DNA of 64,000 nucleotides from Planctomycetia bacterium (GTDB lineage: Bacteria; Planctomycetota; Planctomycetia; Pirellulales; UBA1268). The translations under genes were made by a program, and so were the position numbers. The stretch lies in NCBI GenBank assembly GCA_014192425.1, contig BJHK01000008.1:62001-126000 (forward strand), in the 5' to 3' direction. Shown here piece after piece: positions 34,239 through 47,584 of the stretch (position 1 is the stretch's first letter; each line of letters begins with the position of its first letter). The notes beneath the pieces were generated by a model. It was given only the letters and a program-made list of their open reading frames with translations. It searched no databases and was not told the DNA's origin.

Positions 34239-34384
34239 GCGCAGGGGGCCGCAGAAGACCCGGCACGGGCCGGCCGCCGGTTTGACCGGCCCTTGGACGG
34301 GGGTAGACTTGGAGTGGCCCAAAAAGGTCGTCAGACGCGGCGGTTGTTCCGCGGCGGCCCGCCTCAGGCCAGGGAGACGTGACC

Positions 34385-34588
34385 GTGCCACTCTTTGGGA
34401 TGTTCGGACTCGGGCCGACTGAGTTGCTGATCGTGGGCGTGATCGTCCTTCTGCTGTTCGGCAGCCGCCTGCCCAAGGTGATGCGGTCGCTCGGCGAGGG
34501 GATCGTGGAGTTCAAGCGGGGCGTGCAGGGCATCGAGGACCACGGCGCGGCCGGCGGCCGGGATGCCGGTGGATCCGACACCCGCTGA
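34385..34588 (+). CDS. tatA: Sec-independent translocase protein TatA
   Basis: 67 residues from the GTG at 34385, which has AGGGAG eight bases upstream; the GTG at 34379 is too close to that site. One membrane helix (FGLGPTELLIVGVIVLLLFG) leads to the hinge, with FGSRLPKVMRSLGEGIVEF and a charged tail. TatA forms the pore for folded proteins with twin-arginine signals. A related gene follows and no tatC is in the window. Confidence 0.9.
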   Translation: MPLFGMFGLGPTELLIVGVIVLLLFGSRLPKVMRSLGEGIVEFKRGVQGIEDHGAAGGRDAGGSDTR

Positions 34589-34640
34589 GAGCCAGGGCCG
34601 GGCCACGTTTCTTGCGGGCCGGCCGGAATGAGGTGCCACG

Positions 34641-34925
34641 ATGTTCGGGCTCGGCCCCCTTGAAATCGTCGCGATCGGCGCGATCGCCGTGATGCTCTAC
34701 GGCAAGCGTCTCCCGGAAGTGGGCCGGTCCGTGGGCAAGAACATCGCCGAACTGCGTCGGCAGTGGGCGACGATCTCCCGTGATCTCGACGTCGCCGGTC
34801 ACATCGAGGGCCGGGTGTCGCAGTCCGAGCGGCGGGTCGTCCGCCGTGACGACGAGGCCGACTACGGCGGGTCCTCCTCCTCCGCCCCGCCCCGGTTTGA
34901 CCCGCCGGCCGTGGTCGACGGGTGA
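34641..34925 (+). CDS. TatA/TatB-family protein
   Basis: 94 residues with GAGG upstream. It begins MFGLGPLEIVAIGAIAVM, followed by YGKRLPEVGRSVGKNIAELR, the Tat hinge and amphipathic helix, then a charged tail that is Ser-rich at the end. The longer amphipathic part and YGKRLPE allow either TatA or TatB. It lies 52 bp after the first tatA. Confidence 0.85.
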   Translation: MFGLGPLEIVAIGAIAVMLYGKRLPEVGRSVGKNIAELRRQWATISRDLDVAGHIEGRVSQSERRVVRRDDEADYGGSSSSAPPRFDPPAVVDG

Positions 34926-35045
34926 GGCTTCGCGCGTGCGGTCGACGAGGATAGGTTCGCGGGTTCGTTCGCGACCGTCGGCGAAAGTTGGCCGCAGCCG
35001 GGCCGGCGCGTCGTGGATGATCTGACCGCGTTGGAGATCACATTC

Positions 35046-35924
35046 GTGAGCACGCCCGCGTACCCTGCGACATCGGTGATGCCCAGCCGGTCGGCCGTGC
35101 CCGATGACGTGGCATGGTGGGCGCGATACGCACCGATGATCGTGCTGACGGTAGCGTGTAGCGTTGCGGTAGGCGCTGATGAGTTGCCCGCGGACACGAA
35201 CCAGATCAAGAGCCTGACGGTTGAGCAAGCGAAGCATTTGATTGCGAGCAATGCATGGCGAAATCTGTCCCTCAATGGCTTGGCCGCAGTGACATGCGAC
35301 GTGGCTAAAGTCCTTGCGCAGCACCAAGGCGACCACCTGCACCTTGACGGCCTGACCACGCTGTCTGACGAGGCGGCCAAGGCGCTGGCGCAGCACAAGG
35401 GACCATGCCTGCACCTCAACGGCCTGACCACGCTTTCTGATGAAGCGGCCAAGTCGCTATCGCAGCACAAGAGGATTTGCCTGAACCTCAACGGCCTGAC
35501 CACGCTCTCTGACAAGGCGGCCGAGGCGCTTGGGCAGCACCAGGGACTTCTACTGAACCTCGACGGCCTGACCACGCTCTCCGACGAGGGGGCCAAGGTG
35601 CTCTCGCAGCACAAGGGCAGACTGTCGACCGACGGCCTCACATCGCTCACAAATGCTGAGTTAGCGGCAAAGTTGGCGCAAAAATCCGTACTACGACTCA
35701 ACGGCCTGACCACGCTAACTGACGAGGTGGCTAAGGCGTTGGCGCAACACAAGGGCGGATTGGACCTCGACGGCTTGACCACGCTTTCTGATGAAGCGGC
35801 CAAGGCGTTAGCGCATCACGAGGGCTTACTAGACCTTTCCGGCCTGCACACGCTCTCGGAAGCGGCTGCCAAGGCGCTCCGTGCCAATCCCGACATTTAC
35901 TTGCCTCGCAAGTTCGAGCAGTAA
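35046..35924 (+). CDS. Secreted solenoid-repeat protein (LxGLxxLxxxxAxALxxHxG repeats), paralogue 1
   Basis: 292 residues from a GTG with GGAG nine bases upstream; ATGs at 35079 and 35136 are alternatives. A signal-like hydrophobic stretch (about 31-44) ends near VGADE. About nine repeats of 23-25 residues follow, consensus LxLNGLTTLSDEAAKALAQHKG. This is a leucine-rich-repeat-like pattern with a strand (LxLxGL) and a helix (DEAAKALAQH). Two related proteins occur at 44772-46175 and 46415-47584. Base composition is visibly lower in GC than the neighbours. The repeats are nearly identical in DNA, so the array may have expanded recently. Confidence 0.75.
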   Translation: MSTPAYPATSVMPSRSAVPDDVAWWARYAPMIVLTVACSVAVGADELPADTNQIKSLTVEQAKHLIASNAWRNLSLNGLAAVTCDVAKVLAQHQGDHLHLDGLTTLSDEAAKALAQHKGPCLHLNGLTTLSDEAAKSLSQHKRICLNLNGLTTLSDKAAEALGQHQGLLLNLDGLTTLSDEGAKVLSQHKGRLSTDGLTSLTNAELAAKLAQKSVLRLNGLTTLTDEVAKALAQHKGGLDLDGLTTLSDEAAKALAHHEGLLDLSGLHTLSEAAAKALRANPDIYLPRKFEQ

Positions 35925-36320: not shown

Positions 36321-36394
36321 GGGCAGCTAGCTCAGTTGGTTAGAGCGCTACGTTCACACCGTAGAGGTCACAGGTTCGAATCCTGTGCTGCCCA
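36321..36394 (+). tRNA. tRNA-Val (CAC), integration target
   Basis: 74 nt: acceptor GGGCAGC/GCTGCCC, D-arm TAGCTCAGTTGGTTAGAG, anticodon stem CTACG/CGTAG with loop TTCACAC (anticodon CAC at 36355-36357), T-arm ACAGG/CCTGT with TTCGAAT. CCA is not encoded. The integrase reading frame on the other strand ends inside the anticodon loop. Confidence 0.95.
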
Positions 36395-37694
36395 CCTTGA
36401 AACCTCGTTTTCCCCGTGTTTGCGGGGGAAACGAGGTTTTTCGTGCGCCGCTTTCTGCGCCGTGCGAGCCATTTCTGCCAGTTGCTGCGCCGCTTTCTGC
36501 GCCGCTTTGGACCGGCCCCTCCGCCGCCAGCCCGGCCGCGTCGCGGAAGTGTGCGTCGCGAACCTGTAGGTAGTGCTGGGCCGCGATCGTCGGCGAGTGG
36601 CCAAGCCACTTGGCGCAGACATGGGCCGGGTACTTCTGGACCCAATCGGTTTCGCATGATGCCCGGAGATTCTGGAACAGCCGCGGCCACGGTTCCGCCC
36701 CGGCCCTCACGATGATCTTCTCCGCCGTGGTCCGCAGGTTCGCCCCGACCCTCGCGGCCATCGGCACCACCAGCGATTCCCCGTCGTCGGCCTCGTCGAA
36801 AGCATCCGCGAGTACCTCCCGTAGTCGCGGCACCATCGGCACGAGCCGGACCGCGTGCCCGCCGCCGTGGTGTTCCGTCTTCGGACTGCGGACCGTGAGC
36901 CGGCCATTCTCCCAATCGACGTCGCCCCAGGTCAGCCCGCCGACCTCACTCGGGCAGCGCAACCCGGCCAGCCGGCAGACGGCGAACAGCGATCGCCATT
37001 CGGCCCCCGGGCAAGCCGACAAGACCGCCTCCAGGGTTTCGGGGCCGACATATGCCGCCCGAGCCGGATTGGCCTGGGAGCCGGCCCGCAGGGCCGCGAA
37101 TGGGTTCTTCGTCAGCCAGCCCCACGAGACGGCCTTCCCGAAGACTTGCTTGGCGATATGCACACGCTTGGCGATCGTGGCCGGGGCGAGCCGGTTGTCG
37201 GCGGTCGTTCGGGCCTTCTTCCGTTTCCCTTCCCCCTGCCGGGCCGCGGCGATCGCCACCCGCCATTCGTCCGCGCTGCCAGGCTCGATCTCCGTGATCG
37301 GCTTCCCTGGCCCGTAGAAGGCGATCAGCGAATCGACTGCCTGAGCGTAGGTTGCCGCTGTCCCCGGCTTCACCGCCGCCCGGGCCTTGAATGCGGCGCA
37401 GAGTTGATCGAGCGTCACAACCTCCGGGGCGACGTCTTCCGCCCTCCGGGCCACGAGCCCCACCCGCACAAGCCGCCGGTAGAGCGGCGCCGGCACGCTC
37501 GCCAGCCAGGCGGCCAGATCAGGGGATTCCGACGTCCCCGCGATCCTGCACGCCATGATCTCCTCCACCCGGCGGAGTACGGTCTCGGCCGTCTTCACCG
37601 GCACGCGGCCAAGCCGAACCGCCCGCCGGGCGCCGTCGGGGCCGATGAACTGAATCCGCCGCGTGCCGTTGGCGTCTTTCGACAAACTGGCCAT
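36354..37694 (-). CDS. int: Tyrosine recombinase (integrase); 3' end formed by tRNA sequence
   Basis: 446 residues. A phage-type core-binding domain (about 95-210) is followed by a catalytic domain with Arg in AGLRCPSEVGGLTW, Lys in RSPKTEHHGG, NLRAS where HxLR is usual (the His is replaced by Gln), WLGHS, and the nucleophile Tyr in AAQHYLQV. The last residues (VGSTGFEPVTSTV) are read from antisense tRNA-Val, and the stop overlaps the anticodon. In the excised circle the same frame would continue through the att core into 42889-42680, adding a tail of about 70 residues. Confidence 0.9.
   Translation of the reverse strand: MASLSKDANGTRRIQFIGPDGARRAVRLGRVPVKTAETVLRRVEEIMACRIAGTSESPDLAAWLASVPAPLYRRLVRVGLVARRAEDVAPEVVTLDQLCAAFKARAAVKPGTAATYAQAVDSLIAFYGPGKPITEIEPGSADEWRVAIAAARQGEGKRKKARTTADNRLAPATIAKRVHIAKQVFGKAVSWGWLTKNPFAALRAGSQANPARAAYVGPETLEAVLSACPGAEWRSLFAVCRLAGLRCPSEVGGLTWGDVDWENGRLTVRSPKTEHHGGGHAVRLVPMVPRLREVLADAFDEADDGESLVVPMAARVGANLRTTAEKIIVRAGAEPWPRLFQNLRASCETDWVQKYPAHVCAKWLGHSPTIAAQHYLQVRDAHFRDAAGLAAEGPVQSGAESGAATGRNGSHGAESGARKTSFPPQTRGKRGFKVGSTGFEPVTSTV
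36374..36395 (+). other. attL (tRNA side)
   Basis: The 3' end of tRNA-Val, GTTCGAATCCTGTGCTGCCC plus AC. The counterpart is 42889-42910. On the minus strand it encodes VGSTGFE within the integrase frame. Confidence 0.85.
36401..36441 (+). terminator. Element-borne intrinsic terminator just downstream of tRNA-Val
   Basis: 15-bp arms (AACCTCGTTTTCCCC / GGGGGAAACGAGGTT, one mismatch), 8-nt loop, then TTTTT on the plus strand. It lies inside the integrase coding region but is oriented to end the tRNA transcript, and it sits 6 bp beyond the tRNA. Confidence 0.75.
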
Positions 37695-37748
37695 TCGTGG
37701 GGCCTCCAGGGTATGCCGGGAACCTACCTCAATCGTCGGATCGTCACC

Positions 37749-37804
37749 GCTGCGACAGTGACGGAACTTCGTTTTCTTCGGGAATGGCGAACTTCCGTCG
37801 CAGC
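37749..37804. repeat. Palindromic element, left copy
   Basis: About 56 bp starting GCTGCGAC and ending GTCGCAGC, with inner arms GGAACTTCG / CGAACTTCC. It lies 55 bp upstream of the integrase start. An inverted relative lies at 42640-42690. Confidence 0.8.
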
Positions 37805-37811
37805 CGACGGG

Positions 37812-40076
37812 CTATTTCAGCCTCACCGCATCCGCCGGCCGGCCGCCCGTCGGGGCCGCCGACCATTCGGCCGCGCCTGATCTCGCGAGCCGTTGGAGCG
37901 CCGCCTCAGCCTGGCCGGGGCCGCGGTACTGGGCCAGCCCCCGCGCGACGTCGCGCGGTGTGGCCACGCCCCCGCGGGCGGCGATCCACCGGCGGAGCGC
38001 CCGGTCGTCGGCCTCGATGCCGCCGAGCTGCATCCCCCGGTACACCCGCCGCCACTCCCGGGCCGCCCACCGGGCCAGCCCGATGCCGCGCTCGATCGAA
38101 TCGGCGTCGATCCGGTTGTCGAGTGTCGGCTCGCCCCCGGCCTGGCGGATCATGTGGCAGACGAGCGCCAGCCTGGCGGCCCACGAGCGGGCCTTGCCGA
38201 TCATCGCCGCTTCGGCCCCGCTGGCGGTGAACTGCTCCGCCGCGTTCTCCTGCCACCACTCTTTCCAGACCTCCAGGGCATCCGGCACCAGATCGAGTAC
38301 GGCCGCCCCGCCGTCGGGGCCGGGAGCGATCGCGAACAGCATGTCGAACATACTCGCCATGTCGGCCGCGGTGCTGAATCCGGCGCCGCCCGTCGGCATC
38401 GTCATCATGCGGCGCGGCGGGGCCGCCATGATGAACCGCGGCACGAGCCCGTTCTCAAAATGCCGGGAGCCGGCCACCCGGGCGAGTACACCCGGTTGAA
38501 TCCCGCCGGCGATCGAAACGTGCGCGGCCTCGACGTAGACCGTGCCGGTCTGCTTCCGGTCTACGGTCACCGGCCCGGCGTTGTAGATCGTCAGCCACCG
38601 CGCGGCCTCTGCCCCACCCTGCCCCCCGGAGCGGTACTGATCGAAACCGCCAATCCATCCCGACAACTCATCGCGATCGAGGAGTACGCCCCGCGGGTTG
38701 TCCGCGAGGATCGGCGCCACACTCTCGATCGTCAGGTCATCGACGGCGAACCGCTCGGGCCGGGGGCGGTCGCCGGCAGGCGCGGCCGACCTCGATCTCC
38801 GGTCGGCCTGGCCCTCCCGCTCCCATTCGGCCAGCGCGGCCCGATGCTCGGTGAATGCCGCCCGCTGCCGCTCCCGGGTAAACCGCAGAGCAGCATCCGC
38901 GGCGGGCGTCTTCATGCTGCCGCTCTCCGCCACGGCAATCGCCCACACGATCGCGGGCTCCTGCCAGCCTGGCCACAACTCGATCCGCCGGCGGTTGCCC
39001 ACCGCGGCCGCCACGGCGGCCAGCATCGGCAGCGCGATGAACGTGGCGTCACAACCCAACCCGGCCGCGGTTTCCGCCACGAACGTACCCACGGGATCGG
39101 GCAGGAGCGCGACCGGGAACGGTTCCCATTCCAGCAGATCGGCCGGCGAGTCTGCGGCCGCCACCGCCACCGCCACCGCCGCGGCCTCAATCGGGGCCGG
39201 TTCGACGTCTGCCACAAGCCGCTCGATCGTCGCCCGAAGGTCTGCGGGCTCGGTAGCGTCGTGAGCCTCAATCCAGTCGAACGCATCCCCGCCGGCCGGC
39301 ATGGCAGGCCATGCGTCCACCAGCCGCACCACGCGAACGCTCGCGGCCCCGGCCGCGGTTGCAAGCCGCACTACATCGGCGGCGTACCGCTCGCCGGGGT
39401 CGTCGCGATCCGGGAGTACCACAACGTCGCGGCCGGCCAGCGGTGACCAGTCGGTGCCACTGGCGGCCTGGGCCCCGTGGGCGGATGTGGTACATGTCAG
39501 ATCCAGTGACCGCACCGCATCGGCGGCCTTCTCCCCCTCCGTGACGTAGACCATGCCCGCGGCCTGGAGAACGGCTGGCAGACCGTAGACCGGTCGCGGC
39601 GTGACCATGCCAGCCGCGGCCCACGCGCCGTCAGCTTGCCGGGCGACCGGGCGAACGTCCTTGCCGCCGCCAGGCCGAGCCCACCGTGCCACGACCCCTA
39701 CGACCTCACCCGCAACGTCGTGGTAGTGCCACACCCGCGCCGGCGGCCCACGGCGGCCCGCGATCGAGCTGACCGCCTGTTCCCATGTGGAAAACGTGGT
39801 CGCGGTTTTCGTGGCGGCCGGTTGCCGGCGACCGACGGGGCCAGGCTCCGCGAACGTGTCGCGAGGGTCGATCCCCAGCGCGGCCACGATCGAATCGAAC
39901 GGACATCCGGCGTGACATGTCAGCAGGACGCGCCCGTCGTCCCCCGTGCCGATCGATAGGGATGCGTTGCGGTCCTCGTGGGCCGGGCACCTGCACGACC
40001 AGCCCTTTCGGGTTTGCTTGGGGTCATGCCCGGCGGCCTGGAGCCGTGCGAGTACGAGCATGGTAGGGGTGGTCAT
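37812..40076 (-). CDS. DUF3987/TOPRIM primase-like replication protein
   Basis: 754 residues from ATG 40076, which overlaps the stop of the excisionase gene (ATGA). Near the N-terminus is a primase-type zinc ribbon (CRCPAHEDR near 30, TCHAGC near 55). A TOPRIM-like part (about 180-260) has VTEGEKAADAV and VVVLPDRDDPGERYA, supplying Glu and the Asp pair. The C-terminal two thirds match the DUF3987 type found in phage and plasmid primase-helicase proteins (LDRDELSGWIGGFDQYRSG; GIQPGVLARV). It probably starts replication of the excised element. The usual GKT is not evident (GSMKTPAADAAL). Confidence 0.8.
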   Translation of the reverse strand: MTTPTMLVLARLQAAGHDPKQTRKGWSCRCPAHEDRNASLSIGTGDDGRVLLTCHAGCPFDSIVAALGIDPRDTFAEPGPVGRRQPAATKTATTFSTWEQAVSSIAGRRGPPARVWHYHDVAGEVVGVVARWARPGGGKDVRPVARQADGAWAAAGMVTPRPVYGLPAVLQAAGMVYVTEGEKAADAVRSLDLTCTTSAHGAQAASGTDWSPLAGRDVVVLPDRDDPGERYAADVVRLATAAGAASVRVVRLVDAWPAMPAGGDAFDWIEAHDATEPADLRATIERLVADVEPAPIEAAAVAVAVAAADSPADLLEWEPFPVALLPDPVGTFVAETAAGLGCDATFIALPMLAAVAAAVGNRRRIELWPGWQEPAIVWAIAVAESGSMKTPAADAALRFTRERQRAAFTEHRAALAEWEREGQADRRSRSAAPAGDRPRPERFAVDDLTIESVAPILADNPRGVLLDRDELSGWIGGFDQYRSGGQGGAEAARWLTIYNAGPVTVDRKQTGTVYVEAAHVSIAGGIQPGVLARVAGSRHFENGLVPRFIMAAPPRRMMTMPTGGAGFSTAADMASMFDMLFAIAPGPDGGAAVLDLVPDALEVWKEWWQENAAEQFTASGAEAAMIGKARSWAARLALVCHMIRQAGGEPTLDNRIDADSIERGIGLARWAAREWRRVYRGMQLGGIEADDRALRRWIAARGGVATPRDVARGLAQYRGPGQAEAALQRLARSGAAEWSAAPTGGRPADAVRLK

Positions 40077-40363
40077 GCGGCACCTCCTTCCTGGCCGGCA
40101 TCGTCGGGCCGCTTCACGGGCGGGTTGGCGGCGAGCCGATCGAGCCACGCGAGGATTGCCGCCGTCGGGTAGACCACGGAGCGGCCGATCCTCGCGTGCG
40201 GCACCTCACCGCGCTTCGTCAGGCTCCAGAGCGTGCGAGGGGAAACACCGATCGCTTTGGCGGCCACCACCGGCTTCATCGCGAGGGGGAGCGGGGGAAG
40301 ATCATGCCCGGGACGGATCGGCCATTGGGGCGACCGTGCGGGCTCGTGGTATGCTTCGGTCAT
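40073..40363 (-). CDS. AlpA-like excisionase / MerR-type HTH protein
   Basis: 96 residues. Residues about 32-75 form an HTH_17 (excisionase-type) winged helix: KPVVAAKAIGVSPRTLWSLT, then KRGEVPHARIGRSVVYPTAAI. A GAAAGGA site lies before the ATG. It is coupled to the primase gene by a 4-bp overlap. Likely roles are directing excision or activating int. Confidence 0.82.
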   Translation of the reverse strand: MTEAYHEPARSPQWPIRPGHDLPPLPLAMKPVVAAKAIGVSPRTLWSLTKRGEVPHARIGRSVVYPTAAILAWLDRLAANPPVKRPDDAGQEGGAA

Positions 40364-40440
40364 CGACGAATCCTTTCTTCGCGGGAGGGATTGGGAGATT
40401 CGCGGCCGCGGGGATTGCGCCCCCGCGGCCGTCTTCGTTT

Positions 40441-40701
40441 TCACTGGCGGCGCCGCGGCCCCTTCGGCGGCGCGGCCGGCTTCACCACCCGCCACGAGCG
40501 CGCCGCGCCTGGCTCGCGAGTCATCGCCCCCTTGGCCTGGGCGGTGCGGGCGAGTTGCCCGACCCGGGAGAAGCAAACTCCCATCGCGGTCGCGGCCTCC
40601 CGGAGTGTCGGCGGAAAGCCGCGCTCGCGGGTGAGCCGTTCCACGGTTTCAACCAATTGCTGTTGCCGCTTGGACAGCAGCGGAACCTTCGTCGTCTGCA
40701 T
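40441..40701 (-). CDS. LexA-type winged-helix repressor (DNA-binding domain only)
   Basis: 86 residues from ATG 40701 with AAGGA nine bases upstream. LSKRQQQLVETVERLTRERG, then FPPTLREAATAMGV match the LexA N-terminal wHTH. The SOS-type peptidase domain is absent, so it cannot self-cleave. A perfect palindrome lies 29 bp upstream of the start. It is probably the element's regulator. Confidence 0.75.
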   Translation of the reverse strand: MQTTKVPLLSKRQQQLVETVERLTRERGFPPTLREAATAMGVCFSRVGQLARTAQAKGAMTREPGAARSWRVVKPAAPPKGPRRRQ

Positions 40702-40729
40702 GGCACAATTCCTTGTCGTGAACGTGCCC

Positions 40730-40746
40730 GTGTGGAGCATCCACAC
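40730..40746. promoter_or_regulatory. Candidate operator of the LexA-like regulator
   Basis: A perfect inverted repeat GTGTGGA-GCA-TCCACAC (7+3+7) lies 29 bp upstream of the LexA-like gene. Spacing and symmetry fit an autoregulatory operator; this is inference. Confidence 0.5.
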
Positions 40747-40855
40747 AGGTCACCTCCGCAAAAGAGCAGCCCCGCCCCCTCCCGGGAAAGTTTGCGTCGC
40801 GATTTTTTTTGGCCAGGCCAGGGGAGCGTCGGAAGCCCGTGATTTCCGGCCTCGA

Positions 40856-41185
40856 TCACCAGCCGGCGCGGCCTGGCCGGGGGCCGGGGGCCGGGAGGTC
40901 GATTCCCCATCGATCGTCGCCCCAGGCTCGGCGCAGCCCGGCGGCCACGACGGCGATCTCCTCGGGGGAAGGGTCGGCTTGTCGTCGGGGGCCGCCGCCG
41001 CGACCGCGGCCGACCTTCGCGTCGGCCAGTTGATCGCCAAAGCGAGTGAGGAGCCGCCGGTAGGTCACCCCGATCGCCTGGGCAACGTCGCGGTGCCCGG
41101 CCCCGGCGGCGAGCATCCGCCGGGCCGCCTGCTCCTGCTCAGGGGACAGGAGTTGTTTTTCGGTGCGACCGTGGGAGGCCTTCAC
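40856..41185 (-). CDS. Small helix-turn-helix protein
   Basis: 109 residues from a GTG that overlaps the stop of the preceding gene (GTGA). LSPEQEQAARRMLAAGAGHR, then DVAQAIGVTYRRLLTRF form a homeodomain-like HTH of the kind seen in resolvases and small terminase subunits. The C-terminus is Gly/Arg/Pro-rich. Role unknown; a DNA-binding function for element control or packaging is possible. Confidence 0.6.
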   Translation of the reverse strand: MKASHGRTEKQLLSPEQEQAARRMLAAGAGHRDVAQAIGVTYRRLLTRFGDQLADAKVGRGRGGGPRRQADPSPEEIAVVAAGLRRAWGDDRWGIDLPAPGPRPGRAGW

Positions 41186-41952
41186 CGATAGACCTCGGCA
41201 GCGCGGTGCGACGCGGCGACCGTCGCGGCAATCTGCCGGTTCCGCTCGTCGTCGGTGCCTGGGCGGTCGCGGAACAACCTCGCGACGGCCCCGCGGTATG
41301 CGGCTCGGGGCACCAGCGCGACATGGATCAGCATCCCCTTGGCGACGAGCGACGCGCCGTTGGCGTCGATCCGCTTCGTCGGAAGAAACTTCGCGGAGCA
41401 TCCGTGCCCGGCCTCGATCAGCCGCAGGGCCTCGACATGATCCGGCCGCGCCAGGTCCGGCAACCATTCGACCGCGAGACCGGCATCCGTCTCGATCGCC
41501 CGCAGGCGCGGCCCGGCGAGTTGCAGGAGCGGCCCCTCGCGGTGCCCGTGGCCGATCCGCAGGAGCCAGCCCGATGACCGATTCAGTTCGTCCACGGACC
41601 CGAAGCATCCTCGCACGAGCCGCTCGGGCCTCATGAGGCCCGTGGTCCAGGCTGGAGCCTCCCCGCCGGCCACGATGAGGATCGCCCGCGTGCAGGTCCG
41701 GGGCGGCGCCTCGAAGGGCCAGAGCCCCCCGCGCGGCGGCGTGCCCTTGGGCGCGATCCGCGACCGCGGGTCGATCCACACCCCCGGCCTGGCCGGCGGG
41801 GGCGCCGCCGCGACGGGGGCCGCCCCTGTCGCGATTTCGCGGAGCCCCTGCCGGCGACGGTTTCGGTTGATCGCGGCCAGCGTCCGGGGCGGCAGCGCGG
41901 CGAGCCGCTCCTCGGTTCCGGTGCGGCCGGGCATGGCATGTTCGATGATCAC
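41182..41952 (-). CDS. Prohead-protease-like protein (HK97 U35 fold, tentative)
   Basis: 256 residues from GTG 41952 (GTGA overlap with the upstream stop). The stretch about 128-222 follows the order of phage prohead proteases: WLLRIGHGHREGPLLQL (possible catalytic His), GLAVEWLPDL, EALRLIEAGHGCSAKF (compare IEAGxxxGLSVGF; possible catalytic Ser), and MLIHVALVPRAAYRGA (compare LxEVSLVPxPAYxGA). The N-terminal 90 residues are Pro/Ala/Arg-rich. The match is by pattern only. If right, the element encodes a capsid-maturation-type factor without a capsid gene. Confidence 0.4.
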   Translation of the reverse strand: MIIEHAMPGRTGTEERLAALPPRTLAAINRNRRRQGLREIATGAAPVAAAPPPARPGVWIDPRSRIAPKGTPPRGGLWPFEAPPRTCTRAILIVAGGEAPAWTTGLMRPERLVRGCFGSVDELNRSSGWLLRIGHGHREGPLLQLAGPRLRAIETDAGLAVEWLPDLARPDHVEALRLIEAGHGCSAKFLPTKRIDANGASLVAKGMLIHVALVPRAAYRGAVARLFRDRPGTDDERNRQIAATVAASHRAAEVYR

Positions 41953-42407
41953 GATACCCCCTCCGCGAACAGGCGGTCAGCGCCGCGCCGCAGGTTGTGA
42001 AGCCTGTTTTTCCAGAACTGGGTGCTGCCCCCGTCGCCCCATGTCTGGTAGAGCGCCTTAAGCCGCTCCACTTCGGCCTGGGCGGCGGCCACCGCATCGG
42101 CGAGCCCCTCGGCCGATCCGCCGAAGGGCGCGAGCGCCGCCGCGGCAGTTTCCTGGCACAGTTCGATGTTCTTCTCAGCCTGCGACATTTCCGTGAGCGT
42201 CGCGGCATCGGCCTCCAGGGCCGCGGCGGGCTCTGCCAAGCCGAGGATCGCGCCAGCCTCCAGAATGTCGCGAGGGGCCGGCCAGTCCCCGCCGGCGGCG
42301 ATCGCGGCGGCCCACGCGCGCCATCGGCCGCGGGCCTCGCGGATCATCCGCGCGTGAGCCTTTTTGAACGGATTCGGGGAAGGCGTTTTGGCGGTCGCGG
42401 TCGGCAT
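41949..42407 (-). CDS. Element protein of unknown function
   Basis: 152 residues from ATG 42407 with AGGAGCC upstream. The basic N-terminus (NPFKKAHARMIREARGRW) is followed by a mostly helical, Ala/Glu-rich body with coiled-coil character (about 60-130). It ends WKNRLHNLRRGADRLFAEG. It is the first gene of the minus-strand run and is coupled to the protease-like gene. Confidence 0.6.
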   Translation of the reverse strand: MPTATAKTPSPNPFKKAHARMIREARGRWRAWAAAIAAGGDWPAPRDILEAGAILGLAEPAAALEADAATLTEMSQAEKNIELCQETAAAALAPFGGSAEGLADAVAAAQAEVERLKALYQTWGDGGSTQFWKNRLHNLRRGADRLFAEGVS

Positions 42408-42679
42408 GGATCGGCTCCTGGGGGTGAGTTGGCAGGATTGCCGATCGAGCCTCCGAATCAATTCTGCTCAGGCGTGTAACTCCCCCCTTATGAAAAGCGC
42501 CGGGCGCACGCGCAGAGCGGCCGTGGGGTCATGGACCAAGTTTTGAAATTCAAAATCGAAGCCACCTGGGGGGGGCCGTCGGCCCCTGCCCGCCGGGGCG
42601 GGACACTGGCCGATCCGGCCACGGGCGGCGCCGGCCGCGGCGACGGAAGTGCGCCGATCGCGGGCGAAACGAACTTCCG
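42408..42679. other. Non-coding right part of the element
   Basis: No gene is supported here. It contains the upstream region of the minus-strand operon and the right palindromic element (42640-42690). A long minus-strand open frame across it has no family features and is judged a high-GC artefact. Confidence 0.5.
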
Positions 42680-42690
42680 TCACTGTCGCC
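42640..42690. repeat. Palindromic element, right copy (inverted)
   Basis: Read on the minus strand it begins GGCGACAGTGACGGAAGTTCG and ends CACTTCCGTCGCC, matching the left copy at 37749-37804 over most of about 50 bp (arms conserved, centre diverged). Confidence 0.75.
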
Positions 42691-42888
42691 GGTGAGCGGC
42701 GGCGCCGGGGCGGCCCCCGACGGCGGCGATGATCTCCACCACCGCGAGCCGCTGATCGGCCGGCAGCGACGGCCACGCCTCCACCACCATCGCGAGGAGC
42801 GGATCGGCCCCCGGCCAGGCCGGAAGTGCGCCGGATTCTGCGCCGCCCGGTTCCTCGATCGTCGTTTTTCCCGGGGAAGACTGGGGCA
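42680..42888 (-). pseudogene. int: Stranded C-terminal tail of the integrase frame
   Basis: From the att core at 42910 the minus strand is open as VGSTGSELPQSSPG up to a stop at 42680. The opening VGSTG is in the same frame as VGSTG at the integrase end (36374-36395). Joining the two att sites therefore gives one continuous integrase gene with this tail of about 70 residues, including MVVEAWPSLPADQRLAVVEI, a helical segment. In the integrated state it has no obvious start of its own except ATG codons near 42795. Confidence 0.7.
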
Positions 42889-42910
42889 GTTCGGACCCTG
42901 TGCTGCCCAC
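42889..42910 (+). other. attR
   Basis: A near-copy of the tRNA-Val 3' end with two mismatches in the first eight bases and 14 identical bases after. Host sequence with a terminator follows at 42911. Confidence 0.85.
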
Positions 42911-43715: not shown

Positions 43716-43916
43716 AAGGGGTGTTGCTTTATCGGCCGGGAGAGGGCATGTGCGGTCGGCTGATGGCGAGCGCTGAACACGGTAGAGAATATGCCCGGGT
43801 TTTGGCGGAGATTGAGGGCCGGGCGTCAGTCGCGGGCTGCTGCCGCAGCCTGAGCGAGTGGCGACGAACCCATGCAGGCTTTGCAGCGGTCGTTACGACA
43901 CCGTAAAATCCATCCC

Positions 43917-44147
43917 ATGGACGCCACTTTCGCCAATCGCATCACCATTGAGCCGGGAAAACGCAGCGGGAAGCCGTGCATTCGTGGCCTTCGGATCACG
44001 GTGTCCGATGTGCTGGAATATCTCGCGTCCGGAATGACAGAAGCCGAGATTCTGGCCGACTTCCCGGAATTGACGATTGAGGACATCCGCGGCTGCTTGG
44101 CCTTCGCGGCAGAGCGGGAGCGGCGCCTTCTCGGGTCGGTCGCGTGA
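43917..44147 (+). CDS. DUF433-family antitoxin
   Basis: 76 residues. ITIEPGKRSGKPCIRGLRIT, VSDVLEYLASGMTEAEILAD and FPELTIEDIRGCLAFAA are the DUF433 signature, a VapB-like HTH antitoxin. Its stop overlaps the GTG of the next gene (GTGA). This is the usual antitoxin-first order. Confidence 0.9.
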   Translation: MDATFANRITIEPGKRSGKPCIRGLRITVSDVLEYLASGMTEAEILADFPELTIEDIRGCLAFAAERERRLLGSVA

Positions 44148-44482
44148 AGGTCCTTCTCGACCAGAACCTTTCGTTCCGGCTTGTCGAGTTGTTCCTGTCG
44201 CGTTTTTCGGGCAGTCGTCATGTGCGTGATTTCGGGCTCACGGGCGACGATGACGAGCGCATTTGGGCTCTCGCGAAAACCGAGGGATTCGTCATCGTCA
44301 CAAAAGACAATGACTTTCTGGCTCGGGCTCTGGTCCGAGGGCATCCGCCGCAAGTCATTCAGGTATGCCTTGGCAATGCGTCGACCCAGCAAATAGCCGA
44401 CCTGCTTGCGGCTCGGATGGATGACATCGATCGCTTCGTTGCAGAGAGCACAGAGTCGGTTTTCATGCTGCGGCCATTGTGA
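44144..44482 (+). CDS. DUF5615 PIN-like toxin (VapC-type)
   Basis: 112 residues from GTG 44144. KVLLDQNLSFRL carries the first acidic residue. VRDFGLTGDDDERIWALA, VIVTKDNDF and the C-terminal helical part match DUF5615 PIN-like proteins, predicted RNases paired with DUF433. Asp in LDQNLS, DDDE and KDND would form the acidic site. Confidence 0.9.
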   Translation: MKVLLDQNLSFRLVELFLSRFSGSRHVRDFGLTGDDDERIWALAKTEGFVIVTKDNDFLARALVRGHPPQVIQVCLGNASTQQIADLLAARMDDIDRFVAESTESVFMLRPL

Positions 44483-44771: not shown

Positions 44772-46175
44772 TCAGGGGGCGACGAGCGCGGCGGGCAGCG
44801 CGATCGTGGCGTTCGACCGGAGCGCGGTGATGGCCGCCGGCGCCGCCTTTTCCAGTGCCGTCAGAACGACCGGGCCGGAGGCCTTGGCGAGCGATTGGGC
44901 GGCCGCGTCGGAGATCTCGCGGAGGCCGGAGAGGTCGATCTTGCCCTTGTGGGTGGCGAGCGCGGCAGCCACGTCGTCGGGAATCGTGGCCAGTTTCTTG
45001 AACACGAGGTCGCCGGGCTGCGCGGCGTACTTGGCGGCGAGGGGAGCGCTCGTCAGCACCGTCAGGCCCGGCAGCGGGTTGAGATTCTCCTTGCACTCGG
45101 CAATCGCCGCGGCGACTTCGGGCGTGATCTCGTAAACGCCGTTGAGCGTGCTGTGCGGGCCGTTTCCGTAGCGGCGCAGGGCCGCGACGGCGAGCGCCGG
45201 CGACGAGAGTTTCTTCAGCCCGTTGAGGTCCACCATCCGGCACGGACCCGTCTGCATCTGCCCGGCGAGGGCCGCAGCCGTCTCGTCGCTGAGCTCGGGG
45301 CCAAAAAGGCGGATGTCGAAGATGCCCGAGCCCTTCGCCAGCGAGGCGGCGGCCGCGGGCGACAGGGTCTTCAGGCCAAACAGCCGGATGTTGGCGAACG
45401 GCCCCGCCCAGGCGGCCGCCGCCTCGTCGCTGATCGCCTCCAGGCGGTTCGCGGAGATGTGCCCGCGGCCGGCCATGATCGCGGCGGCGACGTCGGCGGG
45501 CAGTTCGGTGAGATTGATGTCGAGCATGACGCGGTCCTTGAACTTCACCCGATTGGATGGGGGGCAGAGCGCCGCGGCGATTGCCGGCGTCAGCCGAACG
45601 ACCCCGATGGACAACGACTCCTCGCGGCCGAGTCGCTCGGCGAGCGGCAGCGATGTCAGGGTCTGGAGGGATCCGAGCGTCAGCGAGCCACCGTGCTTGG
45701 CCAGGGCGGCTGCGGCCGCATCGGACAGATCGGTGACCCCGAGCTGGAGTTTTCCCGAATGCGTCGCCAACGCCTCCGCCACGTCGGGCGTGAGATCCTT
45801 GACCGCCGGCAGGGAAAGATTGTGCTTGTGGGCCGCCAGCGCCTGGGCAACGGCGGGCGTCAACTGGGCAAGTTTCGGCAGGTCGAGATCGCCGGCCCGC
45901 GTGGCGAGGGCGGCGGCAGCCTCCGGTGTGAGCGCGGCGAGCGACTCGAGACGCAGGTCCCCCTTGAAGCCGGCGAGCACGGCGGCCACGTCCGCCGATG
46001 TCAGTTCGGTGACCGCCAGACGCAGCGCCCCCTTGCGCTGCGCGAGGGCCGTGGCCTGCTCGACGGTGAGGGTCTTGGCACGCGTGGGGTCATCGCTGGC
46101 CCGGCTGCTCAGACCGTCGATGCCGACGCTCAGCAGCACCGCGAGGACAAGGGGTCGGCCGAACGATGGAGTCAT
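44772..46175 (-). CDS. Secreted solenoid-repeat protein, paralogue 2
   Basis: 467 residues from ATG 46175. A signal peptide (about 1-28) is followed by KTLTVEQATALAQRKG, the same opening as in paralogue 1 (SLTVEQAKHLI). Around 15 repeats of 23-25 residues follow, of the LxLxxLxxLTPxVAxALAxHxG type, more divergent than in paralogue 1. The tail ITALRSNATIALPAAL corresponds to KALRANPDIYLPRKF. It is divergent from paralogue 3 with a 239-bp gap. Function unknown; likely an exported binding scaffold. Confidence 0.75.
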   Translation of the reverse strand: MTPSFGRPLVLAVLLSVGIDGLSSRASDDPTRAKTLTVEQATALAQRKGALRLAVTELTSADVAAVLAGFKGDLRLESLAALTPEAAAALATRAGDLDLPKLAQLTPAVAQALAAHKHNLSLPAVKDLTPDVAEALATHSGKLQLGVTDLSDAAAAALAKHGGSLTLGSLQTLTSLPLAERLGREESLSIGVVRLTPAIAAALCPPSNRVKFKDRVMLDINLTELPADVAAAIMAGRGHISANRLEAISDEAAAAWAGPFANIRLFGLKTLSPAAAASLAKGSGIFDIRLFGPELSDETAAALAGQMQTGPCRMVDLNGLKKLSSPALAVAALRRYGNGPHSTLNGVYEITPEVAAAIAECKENLNPLPGLTVLTSAPLAAKYAAQPGDLVFKKLATIPDDVAAALATHKGKIDLSGLREISDAAAQSLAKASGPVVLTALEKAAPAAITALRSNATIALPAALVAP

Positions 46176-46414
46176 GGAGGACGCTGCCTGCGCGGGGGTT
46201 CGATCTGGAGACCGGTTTCGATCACCCTGATTAGCATACGGAGCCGCGTGATTCGCCGGCAAGAAGTGCCGACAGGGCGTTGCGGCGTGGATCCACCGGC
46301 CGTGGGCTCGGTTTCTCGCGTGCGGTCCGCCGCGGCGATGGCTACACTCCAGACCGCTCGGCCTGATCTCACCCCGGGGGCGGAATGCCGGTCTCCTGCA
46401 GGAACGAGGACGCC

Positions 46415-47584
46415 ATGAACCGCATCCAGGCATTTCGCGCCGCAGGCCCGGCAGCCGGGACGATGCTCGTGCTCATCGGCGTGTGTCTCGGCGGCAGTGT
46501 CCGCGCCGACGAGACTGCTCCGCTGCGGGAGCTGACGGTCGAGACCGCCCGCGGGCTCGTCGGAAAATCCCAGCCGCTCGATCTCGACGGCGTCACCTCC
46601 CTCGCCGCGGACGTCGCCGCGGTGCTCGCCGCACACCCCGGCACCCTCAGGCTGAATGGCCTGCGGTCGCTGCCTGACGACGTCGCTGTCGCGTTCGCCG
46701 CCCGGAACGGTGAACTCCACCTCGATGGCGTGACTGCGGTCTCGCCCGCAGCCGCAGCGGCGCTCGGTCGGCACCGCGGCCGGCTCCTGCTTCGCGGGCT
46801 GCAGACGCTCGCACCTGCCGACGAGGCGGAACTCGCCCGCCACGACGGCCCGCTCTGGATTCGCGACCTGACGACGGTCACGACGCCGCGAATCGCGCAG
46901 GACATCCTCGTGCGCACCGACGGCGCACTCGATCATGTGACCCTGCTCTCGGTCGAGGCGGCGCGGGTGTTGGCGCGTCATCAGGGGGTCGTGAGTCTCA
47001 ACGGGCTGCCGGAGGTTTCCGCTGACGTGGCGACCGTGCTCTCGGGCTATGACGGGCCGCTCCAACTCAACGGGGTCGTGTCGCTGGGCGCCATGCAGGC
47101 GGCGGCCTTCGCGCGCCACCGTGGCGTATCCCTGTGCCTCGACGGCCTGCGCCGACTCGCTCCCGACGTGGCCCGCGGGCTGGCCGGCCATGCTGGCGGC
47201 CTGTCGCTCAACGGGCTGACCACGCTGTCCCCCGAGACGGCGGCCGCGCTGGCGACGCATCGGGGCCGCTACCTTTCGCTCGACGGCCTCGCCGACGTGA
47301 CCGACGCCGTGGCGGACGTGCTCGTCGACTATCCCGGTGGACTGTCTTTCAACGGTGCGCGGCAGGTGTCGGACCGGGCGATCGCCGGCCTCGCCGGCCG
47401 GCCGCTGGGCTGGCTATCGCTCGACCGGTTGCCTACGATCTCGCTCCAGGCCGCGCAGGCGGTGGGCCGCAGTGGCCGGGAGATCCGCCTCCGGGGGCTC
47501 GGTCCACTGCCCGCCGAGACGGTGGCCGCTCTACGGGCGAATCCCGCGGTTCGCATCGGTTCGGGCCAGGGGCAGGACCGCTGA
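46415..47584 (+). CDS. Secreted solenoid-repeat protein, paralogue 3
   Basis: 389 residues from ATG 46415 with GAGGA upstream. Signal peptide about 1-32 (ending VRADE), then RELTVETARGLVGKSQPL and about 14 repeats such as LSLNGLTTLSPETAAALATH, closing VAALRANPAVRIGS. The shared LTVExA start and LRxNP end show one family with the two genes nearby. GC is high here, unlike paralogue 1. Confidence 0.75.
   Translation: MNRIQAFRAAGPAAGTMLVLIGVCLGGSVRADETAPLRELTVETARGLVGKSQPLDLDGVTSLAADVAAVLAAHPGTLRLNGLRSLPDDVAVAFAARNGELHLDGVTAVSPAAAAALGRHRGRLLLRGLQTLAPADEAELARHDGPLWIRDLTTVTTPRIAQDILVRTDGALDHVTLLSVEAARVLARHQGVVSLNGLPEVSADVATVLSGYDGPLQLNGVVSLGAMQAAAFARHRGVSLCLDGLRRLAPDVARGLAGHAGGLSLNGLTTLSPETAAALATHRGRYLSLDGLADVTDAVADVLVDYPGGLSFNGARQVSDRAIAGLAGRPLGWLSLDRLPTISLQAAQAVGRSGREIRLRGLGPLPAETVAALRANPAVRIGSGQGQDR

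Follow-up and report, generated by a model that had tools for sequence, protein, structure and literature searches.

A tRNA-integrated element of a Planctomycetia bacterium with a predicted self-modifying integrase gene

A 64,000-nt stretch of DNA from a Planctomycetia bacterium (assembly GCA_014192425.1, contig BJHK01000008.1, positions 62,001 to 126,000 of the forward strand), referred to here as the window, was analyzed. Judged from its sequence, the window holds a 6.5-kb tRNA-integrated element with a self-modifying integrase gene (int), in which the recombination site attP is placed, in frame, within the int stretch predicted to code for a disordered linker after the catalytic domain. The same arrangement is the usual one of this integrase family, members of which occur in roughly half of the genomes sampled from the class. 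Taken as a whole, a self-modifying int in a tRNA-integrated element, with a proposed switch of state or directionality, is probably the best explanation of the data.

Results

The features of the element are listed in Table 1. An intact tRNA gene stands at one end and a 3' tRNA fragment at the other, and int adjoins the tRNA, as in tRNA-targeting integrative elements. The two copies of the att core (GTTCGRAYCCTGTGCTGCCCAC) are exactly identical over 14 nt and agree at 20/22 positions overall. Both mismatches (GAAT/GGAC) fall in the T-loop part, with the version of the gene at attL and that of the element at attR; the crossover is thereby located between the T-arm and the acceptor part of the tRNA.

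Table 1. Features of the integrated element, in positions of the 64,000-nt window
Feature	Position	Strand	Basis or remark
tRNA-Val(CAC), target gene, restored at attL	36321-36396	+	ARAGORN; Rfam gives 36321-36394
Short form of int as integrated, its final codons supplied by the antisense strand of the tRNA	36354-37694	-	PF00589, phrog_1 integrase
attL copy of the att core, from the T-arm through the 3' end of the tRNA, in frame within int	36374-36395	+	
Probable replacement terminator of the tRNA, a hairpin with a T run inside int and immediately 3' of the tRNA	36399-36441	+	
Direct repeat, probable Int arm site, int side	36444-36461	-	
Direct repeat, probable Int arm site, int side	36486-36503	-	
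Primase/helicase (DUF3987)	37812-40148	-	Family match
Candidate Xis: HTH_17 protein, excisionase-like	40073-40576	-	Family match
LexA-like DNA-binding repressor	40441-40746	-	Family match
Two ORFs (41182-41952 and 41949-42461)	41182-42461	-	No family match
Detached C-terminal int tail, ending in a two-helix hairpin and sharing the frame of the core	42680-42888	-	
Direct repeat, probable Int arm site, tail side	42827-42844	-	Exact consensus
att core copy at attR	42889-42910	+	

The int ORF (446 aa) has a Phage_integrase catalytic domain (PF00589, E value of 1.2e-8, above the cut-off) with the conserved Arg/Lys/Tyr residues of a tyrosine integrase. The R, K, R, and Y columns are invariant across 20 relatives, and all of these residues are kept in the short form, which retains the N-terminal, core-binding, and catalytic regions. 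The ORF reads through the att core as KVGSTGFEPVTSTV followed by a stop, traversing the tRNA 3' end as KVGSTGFEPV, and the stop overlaps the tRNA-Val anticodon at 36355-36357. At attR, the same phase gives VGSTGSELPQSS...VVEIIAAVGGRPGAAAHRRQ and a stop at 42680, with the core read as VGSTGSE and about 70 open codons; counted from the core, the joined frame of the window has 76 codons. The initial annotation of this DNA had described both ends in this way, with VGSTGFE as the core peptide at attL and a stop in the anticodon, and both readings were reproduced.

Just outside attR (window positions 43872-44482) is a DUF433 and DUF5615 (PIN-like) gene pair, a probable toxin-antitoxin pair. The island is flanked on both sides by like repeat-rich proteins with LTTLSDEAAKALAQHKG-like leucine-rich repeats (35013-35924 and 44772-46433), and two small TatA-like ORFs (MFGLGPTELLIVGVIVLLLFGSRLP and MFGLGPLEIVAIGAIAVMLYGKRLP) lie side by side at 34379-34925.

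Relatives of int, counted at an E value of ≤1e-40, were present in 210 of the 397 genomes sampled from the planctomycete class; others were found in one Phycisphaerales MAG and in further planctomycete MAGs. With tblastn, int had no match in phage records and one weak match in plasmid records. Among the 70 int ORFs examined, 51 stop inside a tRNA called by ARAGORN, of 11 kinds (Val, 26; Leu, 5; Glu, 4; Met, Gln, and Ala, 3 each; Asn and Ser, 2 each; Pro, Arg, and Lys, 1 each), and a few more run through a tRNA or have a like peptide end where no tRNA was called. The reading phase of the 51 tRNA-ended ORFs gives GFEP/GLEP in 45 and IRT in 6. Mapped on the int tree, the target tRNA requires 17 changes (minimum possible, 10), so the core was repeatedly exchanged while the gene stayed open.

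A search upstream of int for copies of the tRNA end, made without use of the tail, gave 16 attR sites judged credible, all within 20 kb. Every one of them extends the int frame, by 60 to 98 codons, and their tails are homologous and mutually alignable. For the planctomycete elements with a mapped tRNA core, comprising 30 verified cores (including tail-profile pairs) plus L070 and L097, the joined frame is open into a homologous tail in 32/32 cases, where chance would give 1/3 for each; G092b, whose repeat is the arm motif and not a tRNA core, and L155, whose repeat is beyond the int stop, were left out. The joined frame stays open for a median of 68 codons, compared with 32 and 19 for the other two. 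The tail profile matches in 233 of the 397 genomes and, on shared contigs, nearly always lies 5' of int on the same strand.

The initial annotation had named an attP outside int, or stops and frameshifts in the joined frame, as what would speak against its reading; neither was found as a rule, and a few frameshifted or early-ending copies were seen. The int ORF ends ahead of the tRNA in L020, L083, L106, and L110, and tails with no detectable core occur in L153 and G101. In L057 (658-927), L087 (718-966), and L240 (8545-9444), int and tail are contiguous in differing frames, with a tRNA-Gln-like stretch between them in L057; these are decayed or misplaced free forms, or frameshifted records. 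The genome of the window element has a second int of the family (G000:C7:146258-147694, equal to L002:1294-2730), which ends in a tRNA-Met as GTGFEPVTSRL and a stop, with a strong hairpin near the tRNA; neither an attR for it, in about 30 kb downstream, nor a second full tail in the genome was found. In L061, L067, L150, and L092/L132, the attL-attR repeat (score, 75-129) continues past the tRNA and covers part of the int linker, as though an earlier occupant had left this tRNA with an int-derived 3' flank. The int ORF of L102 (963 codons) continues into a repeat-containing protein, possibly an insertion in a protein gene with the frame kept.

Free forms, which the initial annotation had predicted, were sought in viral contigs of IMG/VR. 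A single protein as query found nothing; the int alignment yielded 59 loci, and that of the tail varied too much for use on the whole collection. Four circular genomes carry an uninterrupted int-core-tail gene, namely L162 and L163 (both 7.4-kb records, with terminal direct repeats of 123 and 69 bp), L165 (119 bp), and L174 (80 bp). The record of L162 is cut inside int, and closing the circle restores the continuous gene, which is also seen in records without end repeats (L170, L178/L179, and L214). L163, L165, L170, L174, L178/L179, and L214 each have a single int of 479 to 508 aa from the MAS start, reaching well beyond the catalytic domain, and no tRNA. The tail profile matches L165 and L178/L179 clearly, L170 and L174 weakly, and L214 not at all; the tail of L163 was recognized by way of L162, a close relative with a tail match of 6e-11. 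Integrated forms that end in tRNAs are also present in IMG/VR (L164, L173, and L186), and both states thus occur in nature in relatives of the window element. Because 32/32 joins are in frame and the gene is continuous in free circular genomes, the tail in the joined frame is not due to chance. The same data uphold two further claims of the initial annotation, that the halves joined at the core make one continuous int and that the integrase differs between the two states, being long and helical-tailed when the element is free and short, with an end encoded by the tRNA, when it is integrated. By eye, L162 and L163 have prohead-protease-like, HNH, small-terminase-like, and helicase genes, which suggests that they are phage satellites; the 6.5-kb element of the window may be one as well.

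The long form of L163 was modeled in place of the joined protein of the window, whose halves are not contiguous. The AlphaFold model (mean pLDDT, 83) shows order in the N-terminal, core-binding, and catalytic domains, with a bbba domain predicted at residues 1 to 52; a disordered stretch at 386 to 460, which holds the core peptide, is followed by confident helices at 466 to 479 and 482 to 504. Its best structural matches in the PDB were lambda Int and Tn1549 Int. The tail has no family in Pfam or PHROGs. Identity by codon position in its helix part is.48/.61/.37, and pN/pS there is 0.68, compared with 0.88 and 1.34 in the shifted frames; the constraint is moderate, with pN/pS at 0.75 in the single close pair. 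Only in the free form are tail and int linked, and the conservation of the tail therefore suggests that it acts before integration or in the course of it. The same hairpin follows longer tRNA-like peptides in another planctomycete family (f18; L221-L227, L229, and L230), for which the crossover is perhaps in the anticodon loop. The f18 elements have a conserved peptide, LRxxPxxVAxxLPxDxRQ, where GAESGA stands elsewhere, which suggests that L221-L230 are a sister group with an arm motif of its own. In L231, the hairpin ends an int ORF that is not split.

An 18-bp direct repeat, TGCGCCGSWTTCTGCGCC, occurs exactly three times in the window at ≤2 mismatches, all flanking the core. Across elements, the reverse, GGYGCARAAWSCGGYGCA, is commonest at -131 from the core (at times also -154) on the int side and at +65 on the tail side, in direct orientation; 64 copies were counted versus about 8 expected. 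The repeat is usually translated as AQNPxQ on the int side and as GAESGA on the tail side, in differing frames; GAESGA as a purely protein motif was rejected, since the same DNA gives AQNPxQ in another frame on the int side. For 19 repeat pairs read in different frames, the copies within an element are identical at 17.05/18 positions versus 14.71 ± 0.33 after shuffling (p ≤ 5e-5), and this covariation despite differing frames reflects selection on the DNA. The repeats are probable Int arm sites, which the bbba N-terminal domain would bind, a reading based on the arm-binding bbba shape of that predicted domain and on lambda Int as the best structural match; Xis or a host factor may bind them instead.

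A hairpin and T run on the tRNA strand, inside int and ≤90 nt 3' of the tRNA, were found in 25 of the 51 elements, compared with 39/629 control windows (6%) and 4/51 on the other strand. From this sequence pattern, the tRNA appears to receive a new terminator from the element.

Discussion

As read from the sequences, the gene of the circular form runs from the catalytic domain through repeats, core, and repeat to the two-helix tail. On integration, crossover in the T-arm of the tRNA strands the tail at the far end (attR), and the remaining int gains a stop from the tRNA antisense strand, usually 5 to 15 codons beyond the core. The long gene would be regained by excision. As the element encodes only the long form before integration, that form must be integration-competent. 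The locus would yield only the short form after integration, and self-catalyzed excision, if any, would be by the tail-less enzyme, probably with the excisionase-like protein of Table 1 as its partner. The long Int would integrate, and the short Int would be poor at re-integration and favor stable residence or Xis-dependent excision. With the roles of the two forms inferred, we favor the C-terminal swap as a built-in switch of integration state or directionality, at an even level of confidence, over the alternatives of a swap that has no effect and one that kills the enzyme. The fullest version of the idea is held more tentatively: a phylum-wide bacterial class of elements with some 400 bp of int that code several times over, for the linker and tail of the protein, the arm sites of Int, and the 3' end and terminator of the tRNA. 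The tailed Int would be specialized for integration, and the tRNA-ended one would serve excision or maintenance.

That the swap has no regulatory effect, the long and short Int being alike and int with attP being a compact module that travels well, is a less probable reading. The complete catalytic domain of both forms, the placement of the core in a disordered linker, and the only moderate constraint on the tail agree with it, as does the report that Mx8 Int is not inactivated by its swap (PMC6070905). However, a homologous, in-frame, and confidently helical tail is kept in distant elements, including Gemmataceae elements with a different neighboring peptide, and early stops in the free form should remove a useless tail. 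A dead short form, as in the SSV type, would allow no reversal of integration except by a related full-length Int acting in trans; such rescue is possible, since several related copies per genome occur, and a conserved part is indeed lost. This reading is improbable, though, as the short form has every catalytic residue, the elements retain an excisionase-like gene, and the Mx8 enzyme is still active after integration (PMC6070905).

The attR ORF might, at the outset, be an unrelated small gene or a chance open frame, as long open frames are common in GC-rich DNA and other frames near attR are open too. Against the 32/32 in-frame joins and homologous tails, this is barely conceivable, and the free circular forms with a continuous gene refute it. 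If the switch reading is true, the integration state is written into the enzyme, and a directionality switch is made by recombination itself. With its many natural replicates, among them circular examples of only 7 kb, the family is suited to tests of how a gene itself can store the direction of recombination. The findings also suggest that database integrases with tRNA-derived ends (GFEPVTS-like) can be post-integration forms lacking the true C-terminus.

Comparison with known systems

The closest precedent is Mx8, not SSV, and a bacterial C-terminal swap by self-integration was previously known from this single phage type. In work ascribed to Tojo et al. in 1996, the 112-residue C-terminus of the Mx8 enzyme was reportedly replaced by 13 residues. 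The attP of Mx8 lies inside int, and integration creates a new 3' end that leaves the enzyme modified and not inactivated (PMC6070905); the Islander paper gives Mx8 and SSV as integrases extending across attP (PMC4383910). In the Mx8 genome, the free-form Int has a peptide of the tRNA-derived type, ARSTGLEPVLLG (STGLEPVLLG), about 120 codons before its end. As in Mx8 intP, the planctomycete attP is in frame within int, and the C-terminus is replaced with the catalytic domain left whole. Unlike the single phage, the planctomycete family is spread over a phylum, and its coding DNA combines, beyond Mx8, a two-helix tail that is conserved, repeats in pairs, and a probable terminator for the tRNA. 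The two integrases are remote (HMM, 10.2 bits), with no significant match between the tails; the planctomycete int would thus work like that of Mx8, and close common descent of Int and tail is not indicated. A search of open-licence papers found none on the planctomycete integrase family.

Elements of the archaeal SSV type, including pTN3 and pT26-2, also have attP inside int, a tRNA target, and a parted gene, and a 2021 review regards recombinases that disrupt their own gene as exclusively archaeal (PMC8371274). The likeness to SSV noted in the initial annotation holds for these three points and ends there, as SSV int is left in separated pieces, with the catalytic domain parted from the N-terminal domain and the fragments inactive, whereas the planctomycete int loses only its C-terminal tail. 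Membership in the suicidal SSV type was rejected because the catalytic domain stays whole in the short form.

In actinophages of the BPs and Brujita type, attP lies within a coding gene, and the product depends on the integration state. Such integration-dependent systems are mentioned in PMC4929511. There attP is in the repressor gene, whereas in the planctomycete elements it is in int. With a predicted N-terminal arm-type domain in addition to core-binding and catalytic domains, the planctomycete enzyme would resemble the heterobivalent Int of lambda, Tn916, and Tn1549, the C-terminal end of which is not known to be changed by recombination. Together, the planctomycete family and Mx8 make up a bacterial counterpart of archaeal self-disruption, in which only the C-terminus is exchanged.
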